DNA of 64,000 bases from Candidatus Kapaibacterium sp. (GTDB taxonomy: Bacteria > Bacteroidota > Ignavibacteria > Kapaibacteriales > UBA2268), in NCBI GenBank assembly GCA_026418625.1, contig JAOABA010000011.1:1-64000 (forward strand), written 5' to 3'. Each line of letters opens with the position of its first letter. Within the stretch, counting starts at the first letter, position 1. Positions 1-16,885 of the stretch are shown here, piece after piece. The position numbers and the translations under genes are program-made. Below the pieces are notes generated by a model. The model was not told the DNA's origin. It ran no database searches and worked only from the letters and a program-made list of their open reading frames with translations.

Positions 1-22
1 CGGAGATGTGTATAAGAGACAG
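1..22 (+). other. Nextera/Tn5 mosaic-end adapter remnant (assembly artefact)
   Basis: CGGAGATGTGTATAAGAGACAG matches the 3' end of the Nextera read-2 adapter (..AGATGTGTATAAGAGACAG); its translation gives the MCIRDR N-terminus of ORF 6..602. Confidence 0.97.
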
Positions 23-602
23 GTCATATTACCCTGAAGGATTGAATCCGTTAAAAATTCTTATTGCTGATGAATATGTCCGAGCTGTTCGTGGGGGTTT
101 GGGCTCGGCAAAAACTGCAGCAAATTATGCAGCATCGCTCCTTGCAGGTCAGAAGGCGAAAGACGGCGGATATTCACAAGTCCTATGGCTAGATGGAATA
201 ACTCATGAATTCGTTGATGAAGTCGGTGCAATGAATATTATGTTTGTTATTGATGATGAGCTTGTTACACCTCCTTTAGACCAAGGCACCATTCTTGCAG
301 GAGTAACCCGAGATTCAGTTCTTAAATTAGGTAGGGAATGGGGTTTGAAAGTTTCTGAAAGACCACTTAAGGTTCACGAAATATTCGAAGCAAATGCTCA
401 AGGAAGGCTTAAGGAAGTCTTTGGAACTGGAACTGCAGCTGTAATATCTCCAGTCGGGCTCTTAGCATTCAAGGGACAGTCAATAATAATCAATGATATG
501 AAAATTGGCGAAATCGCCCAGAAAATGTATGACACAATCACAGGAATTCAGCACGGCGAAATCGAAGATAAGTATGGGTGGATTGTAAAAGTGGAAGTGT
601 AA
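23..602 (+). CDS. ilvE: Branched-chain amino acid aminotransferase, C-terminal part (5' truncated at contig end)
   Basis: Class IV aminotransferase sequence: VRGGLGSAKTAANYAASL, QVLWLDG, ITRDSVL-like GVTRDSVLKL, EVFGTGTAAVISPVG. Confidence 0.9.
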
Positions 603-2122: not shown

Positions 2123-3907
2123 ATGAAAAAAACGATAATATCTACGATTATTCTATTAATATTTATCTTATTAAACAGTTGCGGCACTGTCGAGCCAACT
2201 TCAAATAATAATATAAGCATTTTAGAGGGATTAAATATACTTGATACCCTTAATTCAAAATTCCGTGAATTAGCCGAAAAGACTGGTAGTGGTCCGATAA
2301 ATACATTAATGAAAACTAAGGAATGGCTGGCAGAATTGCCTAATGTCAGCGGAGCATCTATCCTTGATGATTATTTTATGATTATTCAACTTAAATCTGG
2401 TCTTTCTGTTACCTTCAATTTAGTTCTTGTTGATGCTGAAGGATACTCAATATTTCGTGGTGGCGGAGGAGAAGCTGAGTCTATAGCTATGGAAAAATTT
2501 AACGAATTACAAAAAAGAGAAATCCCAAACAAGAAAGTACTCTTTTATTCTGCTGCTTATTCTGAATTTTATAAGAAGGGAGAGTTGGAGAAAACTTTGT
2601 CTCATTTTGAGAAATCTAAAGAGAAATATGAAGTAACAGTTTTAAAAGATCAAGATTGTAAGCCAGAAATTATTGAAACATTTGGAAATTATGGATTGGT
2701 AATTATTGACACTCATGGTGAACCAGATGCTTTTATGACTGGTGGAAAAATAACCTTACTTTCTCAAGCAAAGTCTGAAGAGGACATCAAAGCAGTTTTC
2801 AAAAAAAATTTTGGTTCTGAGGAGAATTATTATAAAATTCTCAATAAAGAGTTGAGGTTGGGTGCGAGTATAAGATGGGAAATAGACACAACAAAACCAG
2901 GATGGCTTAAAGACTTTTCAAGTGGAGAACTTTATGCCACTTCAAAATTAATTATAAATCTCCCTAAATTATCGAATACTATAATTTTTGGCAACTGCTG
3001 CTATAGCGGTTATGGTGTAAAACCTCCCGATAAATACTCAGAATTATCTATTAGAACTGCTTTTCTTAAGACAGATCCAATAAGTTATTATGGATATAGC
3101 TTAAATAATGACCGTTCTACAGTTGTTACTGATCAATTCTCAAAATCAATGGAGGATAGTTTAGTGAAATCATTTGTTGTTGATCTTGATACTACAAAAC
3201 AGGCAAATCTCACTTATGATAATTTAGAGTTTTACGATCAGCATCTTTACCAATATGATTTAGATCGTGGTAATAAGAATCCGGATAAATTATGGTTCCG
3301 CCATTACAATCATAATGATTACTGGTTTGGAGGATGCATTACAGAATTCACAGACGAACGTGATGGACAAAAATACAAAGCAGTATGTATCGGTAAACAA
3401 AACTGGATGGCTGAAAACCTTCGTTATAATGCTCAGGGTAGTGTTATCTACAATAATAATAATGCCTTTCTTCCTCTTTATGGAAGATTATATGACTGGA
3501 ACACAATGATGAACGGTGAATCCGGCTCCTCATCAAACCCAAGCGGACGCAAAGGAATTTGCCCAAAAGGATGGCATATTCCCAGTAAAGCAGAATGGGA
3601 AGAACTACTTAAATTCGTTGGATATGATACCGGAAAACTCAAGGATACAATTCGATGGAAAACTCCAAACTCCGGTCATACAAACCTATACAGATTCACT
3701 GCATTACCGGGTGGTATTCAAACACCGCCTCCAACTTCCGCTTTCAGTTGGTTTAGCAATGCAGGATTTTGGTGGTCAACTGATGTTAGCACTACTCTAG
3801 CTGAAACTCATCGGATTATTTTCAATATAGTTGCAGATAATAATGTGGGTAGTTTAGAAGATGCTCAAATGCAATCTAAAGCTTCATGCAGATGTGTAAA
3901 GGATTAA
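2123..3907 (+). CDS. Lipoprotein with predicted clan CD (caspase-like) peptidase region and C-terminal FISUMP domain (B1)
   Basis: Lipobox LLNSC; YGLVIIDTHGE (His198) and NTIIFGNCCYSG (Cys292/293) after hydrophobic strands; FISUMP motifs KAVCIGKQNWMAENLRYN, GICPKGWHIPSKAEWEELL, WWSTD, SCRCVKD. Confidence 0.8.
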   Translation: MKKTIISTIILLIFILLNSCGTVEPTSNNNISILEGLNILDTLNSKFRELAEKTGSGPINTLMKTKEWLAELPNVSGASILDDYFMIIQLKSGLSVTFNLVLVDAEGYSIFRGGGGEAESIAMEKFNELQKREIPNKKVLFYSAAYSEFYKKGELEKTLSHFEKSKEKYEVTVLKDQDCKPEIIETFGNYGLVIIDTHGEPDAFMTGGKITLLSQAKSEEDIKAVFKKNFGSEENYYKILNKELRLGASIRWEIDTTKPGWLKDFSSGELYATSKLIINLPKLSNTIIFGNCCYSGYGVKPPDKYSELSIRTAFLKTDPISYYGYSLNNDRSTVVTDQFSKSMEDSLVKSFVVDLDTTKQANLTYDNLEFYDQHLYQYDLDRGNKNPDKLWFRHYNHNDYWFGGCITEFTDERDGQKYKAVCIGKQNWMAENLRYNAQGSVIYNNNNAFLPLYGRLYDWNTMMNGESGSSSNPSGRKGICPKGWHIPSKAEWEELLKFVGYDTGKLKDTIRWKTPNSGHTNLYRFTALPGGIQTPPPTSAFSWFSNAGFWWSTDVSTTLAETHRIIFNIVADNNVGSLEDAQMQSKASCRCVKD

Positions 3908-3931
3908 AAAAAATATTTATTTAGGTTTTTT

Positions 3932-5725
3932 ATGAAAAGTATTTTTATATTATGTTTTTTAACATTTACATTAGTTCTGGTATTTAGTGGCTGCGGCACT
4001 GTCGAGCCAACTTCAAATAGTAATATTAAAGTTCTGGAGGGTTTGCAAGTTCTGGATACAGTTAGTGTAAAATATATTGAATTTGCAGATATTGAAAATG
4101 GAAGTATATCAAAAGCTCTTGAAAAAACAGCAAACTGGGCAAAAAATCTTCCGAATGTCAGTCTTGTAAACTCTTTGGATGGTCTTAATATGAGAATTGT
4201 CCTCAAATCCGGTCAATTACTTGACTTTAATTTAGTCCCTGTTGATAATGAAGTTTATTCAATTTTTCGTGGGGGTGGAACCGGATTATTAAATGATGAT
4301 AAAACTGATGAGCTATTAAAGAGAACAATTCCAAGCAACAAAATATTAATTTTTGCTGCTGCATACAGCGAATTCTATAAACCCGGTGAATTGGAAAAAA
4401 TTACTTCACATTTTTCTAAATCTAAACTAAAATTTGATGTAAGAATTTTAAGAGATGAACAATGCACCCCTGACGTTTTAAGTAATATCAACAATTACGG
4501 TCTGGTTATAATTGATACTCATGGTAACCCTGATGGCTTTTTAATTGGGAAAAAGTTAGAATTTAAGACTAAACCTAAAACTGAAGAAGATGTAATTAAT
4601 TTGTTTAAAAGCGATTTCGGTTCGGATTACAGCTATAAAAAAATTCTAAATAATGAATTAATTGTCGGATTCTCTATTCAAATGGACTCAACAAAACCGA
4701 ACTGGCAGAAAACACCTATTTTAACAAAAAATAAGTATAAAATTTCCGCTACTTCAAAGTTCATAACCAATTTACCAAAATCTTCCGGAACAATCATTTT
4801 TGGAAATTGTTGCTATAGTGGATGGGGAGCTAAGTTATCTTCTGGTTATATGGACCCCCCATTAAGAACTGCATTCCTTAGTCTAAATCCGATAAGTTAT
4901 TATGGATATACTCACAATGATGAAACTTCAACTACTGTAACTGATAATTTTGCGAAGAAAATGGAAGATAGCTTAATAAAATCACTTGTGATTGATTTTG
5001 ACACAACAAAAAATGCCAACCTTACTTATGATAACAAAGAATTTAATGAACCAATTTACACTAATAATAAATTATGGTTCAGACATTATAACCACGATGA
5101 TTATTGCTTCAATGATTGTATAACCGAATTTATTGATGAACGTGACGGTCAAGTTTATAAGGCTGTATGTATCGGTAAACAAAACTGGATGGCTGAGAAT
5201 CTCAGATATAACTCACCCGGTAGTATGTGCTATGATTCCTCTGATGCTAATTGTGGTATCTTTGGAAAATTATATCCTTGGATAATTGCTTTAGCTGGAA
5301 GTAATGCTTCTATGACTAATCCAAGCGGTGTTAGGGGTATTTGTCCGAAAGGTTGGCATATTCCGAGTAAGGCAGAATGGGAACAGCTTTTTGCAAATTT
5401 CGGAACAGATACAGTTGCTCGAGCATTAAAAATGAAATCTGATTTATGGAAGAATTGGGTTGGCGAGACTAACAGCAGCGGCTTTTCTGCAATTCCCGGC
5501 GGCTTTTTTACTTGGACATTCGACATTTCGACCGGAAATGTCAGAAAATTTCAATTTAAAGGTGAACACGCTTTGTTTTTAAGCACATCAACAGATGGGC
5601 AGGGAAAAGTTTATGTGGTTAGTCTACAGTCTCAATCATCAAAGATTGTCCCATTCACAATCACAAATGATTTAGACCCAAACCAACCCCCTGCAAATGC
5701 TTCTTGCAGGTGTGTGAAGGATTGA
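3932..5725 (+). CDS. Lipoprotein with predicted clan CD (caspase-like) peptidase region and C-terminal FISUMP domain (B2, paralogue of B1)
   Basis: Lipobox VFSGC; YGLVIIDTHGN (His197), GTIIFGNCCYSGWG (Cys293/294); IGKQNWMAENLRYN, GICPKGWHIPSKAEWEQL, SCRCVKD; collinear with B1. Confidence 0.8.
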   Translation: MKSIFILCFLTFTLVLVFSGCGTVEPTSNSNIKVLEGLQVLDTVSVKYIEFADIENGSISKALEKTANWAKNLPNVSLVNSLDGLNMRIVLKSGQLLDFNLVPVDNEVYSIFRGGGTGLLNDDKTDELLKRTIPSNKILIFAAAYSEFYKPGELEKITSHFSKSKLKFDVRILRDEQCTPDVLSNINNYGLVIIDTHGNPDGFLIGKKLEFKTKPKTEEDVINLFKSDFGSDYSYKKILNNELIVGFSIQMDSTKPNWQKTPILTKNKYKISATSKFITNLPKSSGTIIFGNCCYSGWGAKLSSGYMDPPLRTAFLSLNPISYYGYTHNDETSTTVTDNFAKKMEDSLIKSLVIDFDTTKNANLTYDNKEFNEPIYTNNKLWFRHYNHDDYCFNDCITEFIDERDGQVYKAVCIGKQNWMAENLRYNSPGSMCYDSSDANCGIFGKLYPWIIALAGSNASMTNPSGVRGICPKGWHIPSKAEWEQLFANFGTDTVARALKMKSDLWKNWVGETNSSGFSAIPGGFFTWTFDISTGNVRKFQFKGEHALFLSTSTDGQGKVYVVSLQSQSSKIVPFTITNDLDPNQPPANASCRCVKD

Positions 5726-5766
5726 TTCCTAAAAATTATTTTTTTACTTTTTTTTTTGGAGCATTT

Positions 5767-6933
5767 ATGAAAAAATTAATATACTTCCTTGTGTTTGTAT
5801 TAACAACAAATTTTGCTTTCTCAAAGTGGTCGCAACTCACTAATGGTTTAGGGTATGGTTTGGTTTACTCCGTAGCTGTAAGTGGTAATAATGCTTTTGT
5901 TGGAACATTTAACAAAGGTGTCTATTCATCTACAGATTTGGGAAATAATTGGAACCCAACCAATTTGAATTCTAATAATGTAATTTCTCTTACAATCAGC
6001 GGGAATTCATTAATTGCTGGAACCGATGAAAATGGTATTTTCATTTCCACAAACAATGGACAAAGTTGGAGTAATACTTTGACTACTGGCTCCATAAACT
6101 CATTTGCTATAAGTGGGAATAAGATATATGCAGGGGGGCACAAAGAAGTTTATGTCTCCACCAATAATGGAAGTTCTTGGACTGAGATAAATACTGAGTA
6201 TGACTTAACAATAAGTGATATTAAAGTGAAAGGGAATTTAATAATTATCAGCAGTTCTATTGGTGTTCTTATATCTTCAGATAACGGAAATAGCTGGGAG
6301 CAATATAATGATGGATTTGATGATTTAAATGTTTCAACTTTAGCTGTTAATCAGAATAAAATCTTTGCGGGAACTTCAGGTGGAGGCATTTATTTATCAA
6401 CAGATGATGGTAATAGTTGGACAAAGAAAACTGAAATAAACACACTAAATATTACTACACTTCTTGCTTACGGAAATAATGTTTTTGCTGGCACTTTTAA
6501 CAATAATGTGTATTTTTCCTCAGACAATGGAAATAGCTGGACAAAGAAAGATAATGGGTTGAACAATCCTTCCACCAGATTTTTGACTATTGGCGGAGAT
6601 TATATATTTGCTGCTACTGATGGCGGTGTCTATAGATCTAAACTATCAGATTTGACTTCAACTGATGTAAATGATGAAATAAAAAAAAATGATATTTTCT
6701 TAATTAATCCAAATCCAGCAAGTGATTTTATAGAAATTTCAGGGTTTGAAGATAGATCCGACTTTTTGAAAGATGATTTTTCAATTAAAATTTATAATAC
6801 AATTGGAGAGTGTGTATTATTTGACAAACAAAATCAAAATGCTGGAACAATTAGATTGAATATTGATTTTTTAGCTAAAGGTTTTTATTATTTAAAAATT
6901 GGAAATCTAATTGAAAAATTCATAAAATTATAA
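5767..6933 (+). CDS. Secreted BNR/Ycf48-like beta-propeller protein with T9SS type A-like sorting domain (A2, paralogue of 889-2049)
   Basis: MKKLIYFLVFVLTTNFAFS signal peptide (ORF extends upstream to 5704 but ATG at 5767 is preferred); STDDGNSWTKK repeats; INPNPASDFIEIS..YYLKIGNLIEKFIKL. Confidence 0.85.
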   Translation: MKKLIYFLVFVLTTNFAFSKWSQLTNGLGYGLVYSVAVSGNNAFVGTFNKGVYSSTDLGNNWNPTNLNSNNVISLTISGNSLIAGTDENGIFISTNNGQSWSNTLTTGSINSFAISGNKIYAGGHKEVYVSTNNGSSWTEINTEYDLTISDIKVKGNLIIISSSIGVLISSDNGNSWEQYNDGFDDLNVSTLAVNQNKIFAGTSGGGIYLSTDDGNSWTKKTEINTLNITTLLAYGNNVFAGTFNNNVYFSSDNGNSWTKKDNGLNNPSTRFLTIGGDYIFAATDGGVYRSKLSDLTSTDVNDEIKKNDIFLINPNPASDFIEISGFEDRSDFLKDDFSIKIYNTIGECVLFDKQNQNAGTIRLNIDFLAKGFYYLKIGNLIEKFIKL

Positions 6934-6944
6934 TTTTCTAATAG

Positions 6945-6973
6945 CCTTCCGAAAGTTTTGAACTTTCGGAAGG
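6945..6973. terminator. Perfect 13-bp inverted repeat, terminator or palindromic intergenic element
   Basis: CCTTCCGAAAGTT-ttg-AACTTTCGGAAGG; no U-tract follows. Confidence 0.65.
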
Positions 6974-6998
6974 TTGAATTTATGTAATCCCGGAACTA

Positions 6999-7787
6999 CT
7001 AACCAGAAATTACCCTTTCTATCAATCTTTTAAATACCTTATATATCATAATCACTATGACAGGTAAAATTAAAAAAAATACCAGATTTGAAATTTTTGT
7101 GCTATGTAAATAATTAGCGAGAAAAAAAGAGAAAAGGTTTTCTTGATTGTTTGTTAAAATTAAGATTGCTATAATCTGTAATATTATGAAAATAGGTAAA
7201 GATATTATTGTCAAAAGACTGATAGTTTTCAGCTCATCAATATTTTTTAGCTTGAATGTCTCATAAGTTTGGAGTAAATAATAAAAAGCAAACCAAAGAA
7301 ATAAAAAGTAGATAAATTTAAATAGCAAAGGATTGTGTAATGTTGTAAAAAATATAAAATTTGTAAATCCAATATAGAGATAAGATATTGTCCCGGCTGT
7401 AAAGAAAGTTGTTAAGGGGTATCTAAGATGAAATTTATTAATTGATTTTCCTTTCCTGAATTTTATTAAATAATAACAAAGGACTGCCCCAAAACCCCCA
7501 AAAATAATATCATTGACCTGATCTTTAATGATTTCAGGCTTGAATAAATTCAATGCAAAAATCCTAAAAAGAATTTCAATTATTTCATAAGCTAAGAGAA
7601 TAAGAATTAGAACAAACCATTTCCTCTTAACTTTATATGCAGAAAGTAATATAAATATGAAGGCACCAGACCAGATATGGTTAAATGTCCAGAAATCAAT
7701 AAAGAAAATTGGATTGGAATAAATTACCTTATAAAGCCAGAGTGTGTTTGTATAGACTGTCTTAATTATCCAATCCATTATGAACAA
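6999..7787 (-). CDS. Polytopic integral membrane protein, possibly VanZ/DUF2238-like
   Basis: Multiple hydrophobic segments; AYEIIEILFRIF...KDQVNDIIFGGFGAVLCYYL resembles E..E/D..ND patterns of such membrane families. Confidence 0.5.
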   Translation of the reverse strand: MFIMDWIIKTVYTNTLWLYKVIYSNPIFFIDFWTFNHIWSGAFIFILLSAYKVKRKWFVLILILLAYEIIEILFRIFALNLFKPEIIKDQVNDIIFGGFGAVLCYYLIKFRKGKSINKFHLRYPLTTFFTAGTISYLYIGFTNFIFFTTLHNPLLFKFIYFLFLWFAFYYLLQTYETFKLKNIDELKTISLLTIISLPIFIILQIIAILILTNNQENLFSFFLANYLHSTKISNLVFFLILPVIVIMIYKVFKRLIERVISG

Positions 7788-13700: not shown

Positions 13701-13970
13701 ATGATTGAAGAAGTTAAAACTGAATTTTTCTATCTTGAAAGAACAAAAAATGAGGTTAATGAGTTACTTAAATTGATGCTCAATAAAAATCCAACCAACC
13801 TGATTATTGCAGCTGCATCACAATATGTTTCGCAATTTTATAATGGAATAGAGAATATTCTCAAGAGGATTCTTAAAAATTCGAAAATTACTTTACAAAA
13901 ATTTGAAAACTGGCACACTGTTTCATTAAATGCTTTTGGTTTAAAAATTAATTTCAAAATAACTCGTTAA
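13701..13970 (+). pseudogene. HEPN-domain (HepT-like) toxin remnant, C-terminally truncated
   Basis: MIEEVKTEFFYLERTKNEVNELL...IAAASQYVSQFYNGIENILKRILK...LQKFENWHTV; reading frame ends soon after the conserved ENWH without an Rx4-6H motif. Confidence 0.6.
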
Positions 13971-13999
13971 AAATTTATAATAATATAAGGGAAAACAAT

Positions 14000-14212
14000 A
14001 TGGCAAGGGAATTTCAAGTTATAATAGAACAAGACAGCCAAGGATGGCTAATTGCTGATGTTCCAGCTTTGAAAGGATGTCATACTCAAGCAAAGTCCTA
14101 CGATGAATTAATCGAAAGAATTAAAGAAGCTATTGAACTGTGTCTCGAAGTCGAAAATGATGCACCGGTTAATAGGTTCATTGGCATACAAAATGTCTTG
14201 GTAGAAAAATGA
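14000..14212 (+). CDS. hicB: HicB family antitoxin
   Basis: FQVIIEQDSQGWLIADVPALKGCHTQAKSYDELIERIKEAIELCLE. Confidence 0.9.
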   Translation: MAREFQVIIEQDSQGWLIADVPALKGCHTQAKSYDELIERIKEAIELCLEVENDAPVNRFIGIQNVLVEK

Positions 14213-14427
14213 GTAACTTAAAATCTTATTCAGGTAAGGAGTTAATTACTATTTTACAAAGATATGGCTTTGAAGTTATTAGAATAAAGGGTAGCCATCA
14301 TTATTTACGACATAAGGATGGTAGGTCAACCGTGATACCAGTTCATTCGAACGAAAGTATAGGAATAGGTTTGTTTTTAAAAATCCTTAAAGATGTTGAT
14401 ATTCCTAAAGACGAATTTGACAAATAG
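14209..14427 (+). CDS. hicA: HicA family mRNA interferase toxin
   Basis: GKELITILQRYGFEVIRIKGSHHYLRHKDGRSTVIPVHSNESIGIGLFLKILKD; ATGA overlap with hicB. Confidence 0.92.
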   Translation: MSNLKSYSGKELITILQRYGFEVIRIKGSHHYLRHKDGRSTVIPVHSNESIGIGLFLKILKDVDIPKDEFDK

Positions 14428-14562
14428 TCTTTAATTTTACCATTTAATACTTCTTAATAATTGAAGCCTTTATAAAAATCTCATTAAAATCAATAGTTTA
14501 TCATCATTTTCATTTTTGACAAAAAAAACTAATAATTTTGATTTATGTGAATTTTCTTTATA

Positions 14563-14591
14563 AATCAAGGGGCTTTATCAGCCCCTTGATT
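14563..14591. terminator. Bidirectional hairpin between hicA and S9 peptidase gene
   Basis: AATCAAGGGGCT-ttatc-AGCCCCTTGATT. Confidence 0.85.
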
Positions 14592-14617
14592 AAGTAGTTA
14601 AGTTTCTAATTATATTA

Positions 14618-16885
14618 CTATTTCTTGCAGTATTTGTCAAGGAATTCGAAAAGTTCTTTATACCAAAGGATTTGATTTTGAGGTTTAAGAATCCAGTGGT
14701 TTTCCTTTTCCCAGAAGATAAGTTTTGAAGGCACTCCAAGAGATTGAGCCGCTGTGAAAGCTTCCAAACCTTGTGTATATGGTATTCTGTAATCTTTTTC
14801 TCCAACACTGATAAGAATTGGAGTGTCCCACTTTTTCACATATTCGTGTGGTGAGAATTTAGTGTATTGTGATTTATATTTATCATCCCAATAAGGACCG
14901 CCGAATTCCCAATTTGGAAACCACAGCTCTTCGGTTGAACCGTATTTACTAACTAAATTGAAAGCACCATTGTGAGAGACAAATGCAGAAAATCTTTTGT
15001 TGTGATTTCCTGCTAACCAGAAAACAGCATAACCACCGGCACTTGCACCAACCGCAGCAATACCTTTTTTGTCAATAAATGGTTCTTTAGCTATTGAGTC
15101 AGTTGCGGCGAGAATGTCTTGCATTGGTAAACCGCCCCAATCTTTGCTGATAGCATCGTTCCAAGCCTGACCGAAGCCGGGAACTCCACGCCTGTTAGGT
15201 GCAACAACGACATACCCTTTTGAAGCCATTAGGAAAAGGTTCCAGCGTAAGCTGAAATACTGACTAATGGTTGATTGTGGACCTCCCTGACAATATGTTA
15301 TCATCGGATATTTTTTGTTTGGGTCGAAAAATGGCGGATAAATGACCCAAGTATGAATTAGTTTACCATCTTTGGCTTTAATTTTACGCTCTGTTATGGT
15401 TGCTTCAACAATTGTATTATATTCAATATCATTTTCGAAAGTCAGTTTGGTAAGTTGGGAATTATCAATGTTTAGAGAATAAAGCTCATAAGGGCGAAGC
15501 ATAGTTCTCAATGGTGCAATTATTTTCTTGCCGTCAGGTGTTATGTCAAGGCCGCCATCAAGATTATGTCTGCCGTTTGTAAGAACTTTCCATTTTCCGT
15601 CCGCAACCTGTATCTGGTAAATTTGAACTGTCGGACCATCTTCTGCTGAGAAGTAAATATAACGACTATCAGGAGACCAAACAAAATGCCCAACCCATTG
15701 GTCTAATGTTTTGGATAATTCGGTAATAGTTCCAGTCTGGCGGTTATATAACATAAGCCTGATTCTATCGGATTCAAAACCGGGTCTTTGTTGGCTGGTG
15801 AAAGCAATCCATTTCCCATCTGGAGAATATTGAGGTGATTTGTCATAACCCATCATACCCTTAGTAATATTTTTTGTGCTTTTATCAGTTAAGGAATAAA
15901 TAAAAATGTCAGTGTTAGTGCTAAATGCGTAGTCTTCAACTTTTTTTGATGAGTAAGCAATTTCTTTTCCGTCAGGAGACCAAGCAATTTGTTCAGCGTC
16001 ATCAAAAGGTTTATCGGGAACATCATAAAGCTCACCGGGATTTAAGTCGATTGCGTTGCCACCATTTGAAGGCATAATGAAAAGATGACTATATTTCTCA
16101 TCAATCCATTCGTCCCAATGTCTAACGGGCAATTTATCATAAATCTTGACTGAAGATTTATCTAAATAAGGATATTTTTCTTGAACAGTCATTTTGAGCT
16201 TAACTTCTGAAGAAAAAGAGAAATACTTACCATCAGGCGACCATTTCAAATTACTAACTCCTTCGGGTAAGTCAGTTAATTTCTCAGTTTTTTCTGTTTC
16301 TAAGTTATATATATATATTTGCGGAGCTCCATCACGAGTGGAGATATATGCAATTCTTTTACTATCGGGTGACCAGCAAGGATCAAAATCCTGAGCGGGA
16401 TTGTCAGATATATTAAACTTGTTCGAACCGTCAATGTTCATTATAAAGAGGTCTTTATTTTTCTTATTTTCTTTGATGTCTGTTGTAGTAATTGAAAAGA
16501 CAAGTTTTTTTCCATCAGGAGAAATTTTTGCTCCGCCAACCATTTTAAGTGACATCATAATTTCTTCGGTAAATAATCTGGGACCTGGAGAACCAATGTG
16601 TGATTCCAGTATTTTATCAAAATGAGCACCTGAATCCCTTAGGAAGCTCTCGAATTGTCTATCGAACAAATCATCGACTTCAGCATCAGACATTTTAGTA
16701 AGTTGCTCGGGAGTATATCTGGTTAGGAAAATTGGTAGATGTTTAGCTTTATCTGGGGTTAATTTTTTGAATCTCTCTAACATATGCTTAGTAGCAGGAA
16801 AGGGAGATATGAAATCCTGTTCTTGACTATAAGATATGTTCAAGGTAAAAACTAAAAAAAATATTAATAATGATAGTTGTTTCAT
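14618..16885 (-). CDS. S9 family (prolyl oligopeptidase/acylaminoacyl-peptidase) serine peptidase
   Basis: TolB/WD40-like SPDGKWIAFTS repeats; GASAGGYAVFWLAGN nucleophile elbow; ISVGEKDYRIPY; ENHWI. Confidence 0.93.
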   Translation of the reverse strand: MKQLSLLIFFLVFTLNISYSQEQDFISPFPATKHMLERFKKLTPDKAKHLPIFLTRYTPEQLTKMSDAEVDDLFDRQFESFLRDSGAHFDKILESHIGSPGPRLFTEEIMMSLKMVGGAKISPDGKKLVFSITTTDIKENKKNKDLFIMNIDGSNKFNISDNPAQDFDPCWSPDSKRIAYISTRDGAPQIYIYNLETEKTEKLTDLPEGVSNLKWSPDGKYFSFSSEVKLKMTVQEKYPYLDKSSVKIYDKLPVRHWDEWIDEKYSHLFIMPSNGGNAIDLNPGELYDVPDKPFDDAEQIAWSPDGKEIAYSSKKVEDYAFSTNTDIFIYSLTDKSTKNITKGMMGYDKSPQYSPDGKWIAFTSQQRPGFESDRIRLMLYNRQTGTITELSKTLDQWVGHFVWSPDSRYIYFSAEDGPTVQIYQIQVADGKWKVLTNGRHNLDGGLDITPDGKKIIAPLRTMLRPYELYSLNIDNSQLTKLTFENDIEYNTIVEATITERKIKAKDGKLIHTWVIYPPFFDPNKKYPMITYCQGGPQSTISQYFSLRWNLFLMASKGYVVVAPNRRGVPGFGQAWNDAISKDWGGLPMQDILAATDSIAKEPFIDKKGIAAVGASAGGYAVFWLAGNHNKRFSAFVSHNGAFNLVSKYGSTEELWFPNWEFGGPYWDDKYKSQYTKFSPHEYVKKWDTPILISVGEKDYRIPYTQGLEAFTAAQSLGVPSKLIFWEKENHWILKPQNQILWYKELFEFLDKYCKK

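Follow-up and report, generated by a model that had tools for sequence, protein, structure and literature searches.

Tandem exported lipoproteins of Candidatus Kapaibacterium with a predicted CHAT-like clan CD peptidase domain and a C-terminal FISUMP domain

Two open reading frames, W1 and W2, lie in the same direction with 24 bases between them in the window, i.e., the whole stretch of 64,000 nucleotides that was analyzed. Their products are 50% identical in a pairwise alignment and are exported lipoproteins to judge by their lipoboxes (LLNS-C20 in W1 and VFSG-C21 in W2). The following features were assigned.

2123..3907, + strand: W1, lipoprotein of 594 aa with an N-terminal subdomain, a predicted clan CD (CHAT-like) domain, and FISUMP
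2123..2182, + strand: W1 signal peptide and lipobox, lipidation expected at Cys20 (sequence; Cys at this column in 21/25 rows)
2210..2458, + strand: W1 N-terminal subdomain, residues 30-112, two helices and three strands, candidate pro-domain (predicted model; free-standing copies in relatives)
2456..2464, + strand: W1 Arg112-Gly-Gly, conserved, putative site of self-processing ahead of a disordered linker (Arg in 23 of 25 rows, Lys in one, a gap in one; low-pLDDT linker)
2534..3331, + strand: W1 predicted clan CD peptidase-like domain, residues 138-403 (model, Foldseek, profile comparison)
2714..2716, + strand: W1 His198 codon, candidate catalytic His (25/25)
2999..3001, + strand: W1 Cys293 codon, candidate catalytic nucleophile (25/25)
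3344..3904, + strand: W1 FISUMP domain (TIGR02145)
3932..5725, + strand: W2, tandem paralogue of W1, 597 aa
4022..4270, + strand: W2 N-terminal subdomain, residues 31-113 (alignment to W1)
4268..4276, + strand: W2 Arg113-Gly-Gly, conserved (alignment to W1)
4340..5113, + strand: W2 predicted clan CD peptidase-like domain (alignment to W1)
4520..4522, + strand: W2 His197 codon (homologue alignment)
4811..4813, + strand: W2 Cys294 codon (homologue alignment)
5126..5722, + strand: W2 FISUMP domain, ancestry apparently unlike that of the W1 FISUMP (TIGR02145; tree conflict)

The reading frames, the lipoboxes, and the motifs YGLVIIDTHG and IIFGNCCYSG had been given in a preliminary description of this DNA and were all correct on re-check, as was the numbering of the His and Cys residues (His198/Cys293 in W1 and His197/Cys294 in W2). 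The C-terminal FISUMP domain named there was likewise found in both proteins, with matches to TIGR02145 (E 2e-40 for W1 and 5e-42 for W2; 139 and 145 bits versus a curated cutoff of 41.65) and PF09603 (E 2e-26 and 6e-23, respectively). FISUMP, from about residue 400 to the C terminus, was the sole annotation obtained from Pfam and NCBIfam; the approximately 390 residues preceding it had no match in either collection. W1 and W2 are the only full copies in the host genome, and the similarity of a third FISUMP protein, encoded on another contig, is confined to the FISUMP domain.

Two beta-propeller (BNR/Sortilin-like) Por_Secre_tail proteins, 43% identical to each other, flank the pair (889-2049 and 5764-6933). 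Propeller genes also occur near other homologues (L062 6368-7483, directly upstream, and L045 14523-15758). The first open reading frame of the window (6-602) starts with MCIRDRS, a peptide that often stems from sequencing adapters at contig ends, and the first bases of the contig may be artefactual.

Homologues were sought in 391 genomes of the same class, with a contig scan as a second source. The genome search returned close homologues of the same architecture as well as more distant relatives, about 700 residues long, in which the tail is a different one. The contig scan found nothing with a two-row alignment and 16 loci with a 14-row alignment; its loci come from Sphingobacteriales, Bacteroidales, Prolixibacteraceae, Ca. 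Kapaibacterium records, and Terrimonas ginsenosidimutans NA20 (L067). Homologues were present in 2 of the 60 nearest genomes (the window's own counted), in 25 of the 391 genomes of the class (E up to 0.01, distant relatives counted), and in 10 of 396 genomes drawn from the phylum. The distribution is patchy and scattered across Bacteroidota, and tandem arrays recur, with four or more copies in G157, three in G086, and two in L059. Among close homologues, fusion to FISUMP is the rule. No conserved operon was found around the FISUMP-type homologues. Carriage by mobile elements is unsupported, as viral contigs held no relative of the peptidase part and plasmids held FISUMP matches only, on two plasmids. 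In L045, a TIR-TPR protein (5528-7198) is encoded directly upstream of a homologue, and another TIR-like gene lies downstream. The lipoprotein encoded on the minus strand of L158 (3242-5401) contains STHG and FSACE motifs, matches no Pfam family over the cutoff, and is possibly another unannotated clan CD lipoprotein.

In an alignment of 25 homologous regions, which are 24 to 56% identical to W1, H198 is the only invariant His and C293 the only invariant Cys (25/25 each), bearing out the residue pair singled out beforehand. G199, directly after H198, is invariant too (25/25), while the remaining four His and three Cys residues of the W1 N-terminal region vary. Because W1 and W2 are 50% identical and the His, the next Gly, and the Cys are invariant in 25/25 rows, the motif pair, judging from these alignments, is not a matter of chance. 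Cys292, the first Cys of NCCYSG in the window, is replaced by Met in 16/25 rows; therefore, C293 is the candidate nucleophile. The residue after the dyad Cys varies (Y, N, W, F, or E), and GG replaces SG in two homologues. Distant relatives, including those with other C-terminal tails, retain the dyad: their His motif reads THG (or AHG) and their Cys motif, for example, NSCES or NSCEG. In other relatives, the pair reads RGHG and ESCHG. A criterion for clan CD, a conserved aromatic residue in L5 after beta5 near S1, was also compared: Tyr325, at the end of beta5 in the predicted model, is Y in 20 and F in 5 of the 25 rows.

An AlphaFold2 model of W1, covering 385 mature residues, reached a pLDDT of 84.7 and a pTM of 0.87. 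Its elements follow the caspase-hemoglobinase order; H198 comes immediately behind beta3 (192-196) and C293 immediately behind beta4 (287-291). Between beta3 and beta4, a hairpin and helices are inserted, as in CHAT-like layouts. The clan CD spacing proposed in the preliminary description was thus right as to the placement of His and Cys, but the gap of 95 residues between them is long for C14. Foldseek searches against the PDB gave probabilities of 1.00 for Csx29 (CHAT), 0.98 for separase, 0.97 for SAVED-CHAT, and 0.91 for Craspase CHAT; a metacaspase and several caspases ranked lower, with low-probability unrelated folds interspersed. The best E-value was 3.3e-3, none fell below 1e-3, and TM-scores were low; therefore, the clan CD assignment rests on the agreement of independent lines. 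The full-length model gave a weaker Foldseek list than the N-terminal one, and among its 50 matches listed there was no confident CLec match for the FISUMP part.

Profile-profile comparison, with alignments built here, gave P values of 0.0027 for CHAT, 0.069 for C14, and 0.08 for C25, versus 0.22 to 0.54 for reversed controls. As a yardstick, the same test gave 0.0019 for CHAT versus C25 and 0.0003 for CHAT versus C14. The CHAT alignment (P 0.0027, His half) places THG on CHAT AThG; a second segment, weak and nonsignificant when taken alone, sets the Cys motif on CHAT LsaCetG. The CHAT model PF12770 had zero matches among the 25 members, even at E 1, and the Pfam models for C14 (PF00656) and C25 (PF01364) gave no match. 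Sequence searches of the PDB with one protein and with the 25-row profile returned chance matches only, and the PADLOC anti-phage defense models had no match. By prediction from model and sequence, the unannotated region is a clan CD domain. As Foldseek and the profile comparison favor CHAT while the Pfam model finds no match, it is best described as a lineage of clan CD that is closest to CHAT/separase and lies outside the PF12770 model. Identity as a C14 metacaspase was set aside, as CHAT/separase match better in both comparisons. The earlier caspase-like reading therefore holds for the clan CD fold, since structure prediction returned the caspase-hemoglobinase topology and clan CD peptidases make up the credible Foldseek matches, but not for the nearest family, which is CHAT/separase rather than C14.

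Ahead of this domain, the AlphaFold2 model of W1 shows two helices and three strands (residues 33-103) and a poorly predicted, low-pLDDT linker (residues 113-128). R112-G113-G114 lies at the junction of subdomain and linker, 26 residues upstream of beta1; the R112 column holds R in 23 rows, K in 1, and a gap in 1. Self-cleavage occurs 30 residues ahead of beta1 in MARTX-CPD, and in pro-RgpB the cut follows an Arg (PMC4357240). By analogy, Arg-Gly-Gly is a plausible candidate for a self-processing site. In another family of the phylum, an RGHG/ESCHG clan-CD-like secreted protein (L155 3091-4990 and L156 2657-4541) has a similar subdomain in front, and a separate lipoprotein of 106 residues, consisting of the N-terminal subdomain only, is encoded just downstream. 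Similarity between the free subdomain and that of its neighbor extends over 31 residues only (E 3e-5). Such a free subdomain lipoprotein would fit a role as pro-domain or inhibitor.

FISUMP is the tail of most close homologues. In L062 7689-9695, it is replaced by FGE-sulfatase (PF03781, E 3e-49), and the same contig also encodes a FISUMP-type copy (13813-15729). L066 and similar loci have a choice-of-anchor L tail (NF038133, E 2e-9 in L066). The core is conserved while the C-terminal module changes across the family. The architecture first described, with its FISUMP fusion, is thus real, but at least three tails are interchangeable, FISUMP among them. At eight distinct loci, the gene for the choice-of-anchor-L type is followed directly by one for a small protein of about 150 residues (L066 9364-9828; also L019-L022, L024, L025, L029, L032, L049, L051, and L071). 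This small protein has no Pfam match over the cutoff, is absent beside the FISUMP type, and is a candidate cognate inhibitor or partner.

Within the pair itself, W1 and W2 are 18% identical over FISUMP residues 501-585, versus 65% and 89% in the flanks and 54% in the protease part. Over this FISUMP segment, W2 shares 51% identity with a Kapaibacterium copy (L052 6813-9851), while the protease parts of these two proteins are 32% identical. The switch in similarity lies near residues 400-426. In the protease tree, W1 and W2 are sisters (100/100), and a tree that places W2 beside the Kapaibacterium copy is rejected (p 1.5e-7). In the FISUMP tree, W2 groups with the Kapaibacterium copy (97/90), and a grouping of W1 with W2 is rejected at p 0.028 in a test run after the pattern had been seen. 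Exchange was also tested at L059, L052, and L056 and was nonsignificant. Since the FISUMP test was post hoc and the other candidates were nonsignificant, a single event is claimed, in W2 only, the conflicting trees indicating one probable exchange of the FISUMP domain.

The Capnocytophaga-type surface export signal, C-X-K-(D/E)2 or an acidic stretch following the lipid Cys, is absent in the window, where the sequence reads CGTVEP; four homologues, namely L053, L063, and the two copies in L059, do fit C-X-K-(D/E)2.

We consider it fairly probable that W1 and W2 are lipid-tethered clan CD proteases, with FISUMP as a recognition domain for a target or ligand and the N-terminal subdomain as a pro-domain. 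Proteins would be cleaved by the His-Cys dyad, either at the cell surface or within the periplasm, and FISUMP, by binding a target or ligand, would direct the protease in place or time. The lipid-bearing N-terminal subdomain would be the pro-domain that holds the protease. In the weakest step, a cut at Arg-Gly-Gly would release the peptidase-lectin part from its anchor or from inhibition. A fuller scheme, which we regard as quite unlikely, has self-processing CHAT-type envelope proteases with exchangeable lectin-fold sensors, in which a ligand bound by FISUMP, FGE-sulfatase, or choice-of-anchor L would trigger the Arg-Gly-Gly cut and free the protease of its lipidated inhibitory pro-domain, with the free pro-domain lipoproteins or the small downstream protein as cognate inhibitors. 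If true, the scheme would place outside the cytoplasm a counterpart of the caspase-CLec conflict systems that act within cells, with domain exchange rather than retroelements as the source of diversity.

The predicted clan CD fold, the export signal, and the envelope location would also suit a general digestive protease, i.e., a gingipain-like nutrient enzyme with FISUMP as a mere tether to extracellular protein or glycoprotein and no gating or sensing. Indeed, Bacteroidota employ secreted clan CD proteases, and C25 was present in 41/41 genomes searched. However, patchiness, tandem arrays, and tail exchange between paralogues fit recognition diversity better, and the N-terminal subdomain is conserved and interface-like, so we consider a digestive role unlikely. 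Duplicated Por_Secre_tail proteins flank the pair, and two homologues have a propeller gene nearby, as might be expected of a transpeptidase or sortase-like enzyme joining cargo to the surface, perhaps the neighboring Por_Secre_tail beta-propeller proteins themselves. The type IX sortase, PorU, belongs to clan CD (C25). Yet the genome has C25 proteins already and such neighbors are missing at most homologous loci, which makes this role very improbable.

Somewhat less remote, at a slim chance, is a pseudoenzyme that keeps fold and dyad as a structural scaffold or binding site without cleavage. Pseudo-orthocaspases do occur in bacteria (PMC6426788). Pseudo-forms usually lose the dyad, whereas here no other His or Cys is invariant across the 25 divergent rows, and the dyad is retained with other tails. 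FISUMP is also a known target domain of diversity-generating retroelements (DGRs) (PMC4159848), and the 18% identity between W1 and W2 over its residues 501-585 might suggest a receptor whose FISUMP loops are mutated by reverse transcriptase. However, RVT_1 had no match in the host genome and a match in just 1 of 8 homologue-bearing genomes, and the 51% identity of the W2 segment to that of another genome speaks for exchange. The DGR hypothesis was rejected as largely refuted, and we give it almost no chance.

The lipid-tethered protease favored here can be compared with several known systems. CHAT (PF12770; Csx29/TPR-CHAT and SAVED-CHAT) and separase (C50) provide the nearest solved folds and share the hairpin between the His and Cys strands, and the THG and Cys motifs of the W1 family align with CHAT AThG and LsaCetG. 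In contrast to CHAT, W1 and W2 have no Pfam model match and are exported lipoproteins with an N-terminal subdomain and a lectin-like tail; the CHAT proteins matched here are intracellular. Fusions of metacaspase and FGE-sulfatase have been reported (PMC3501461). They likewise join a peptidase of clan CD to an FGE/CLec-type module, and family member L062 has FGE-sulfatase itself. However, the peptidase there is C14, whereas the W1/W2 domain has no C14 match, follows a lipobox and N-terminal subdomain, and usually precedes FISUMP. A DGR target uniting CHAT, TIR, and a variable CLec domain has been proposed as a sensor-effector (PMC10907252). It also joins a CHAT-type domain and a variable CLec domain in one protein, but W1 and W2 have neither TIR nor reverse transcriptase, are exported lipoproteins, and appear to vary via domain exchange.

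Gingipain (C25) and MARTX-CPD (C80) have their clan CD domain behind an N-terminal part as well, with a self-cleavage site (Arg in RgpB; PMC4357240) that is putative in W1/W2; neither is a sequence match or a top fold match for W1/W2. FISUMP lipoproteins such as Mfa2-Fib_succ_major are known DGR targets and resemble W1 and W2 as lipoproteins with FISUMP at the C terminus, but their N-terminal domain is a fimbrial anchor instead of a predicted peptidase fold; similarity between FISUMP and DUF1566 has also been described (PMC4159848). No description of the exact clan CD-FISUMP lipoprotein architecture was found in the literature searched. Fusion of a clan CD peptidase with a C-type lectin fold is already known (PMC3501461, PMC10907252); the novelty lies in a CHAT-like lineage without a name, in its placement on lipoproteins, in tails that can be interchanged, and in the exchange event.

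Clan CD enzymes serve regulated proteolysis in settings that range from apoptosis to CRISPR-linked proteases; most of what is known about their CHAT branch comes from conflict systems inside the cell. The homologue in the named strain T. ginsenosidimutans NA20 makes experiments feasible. Overall, the CHAT branch would reach the cell envelope through this conserved, unannotated CHAT-like lineage of exported lipoproteins, in which the dyad is constant and the tail changes, and FISUMP, a widespread domain, would gain a testable function in recognition for a tethered protease.
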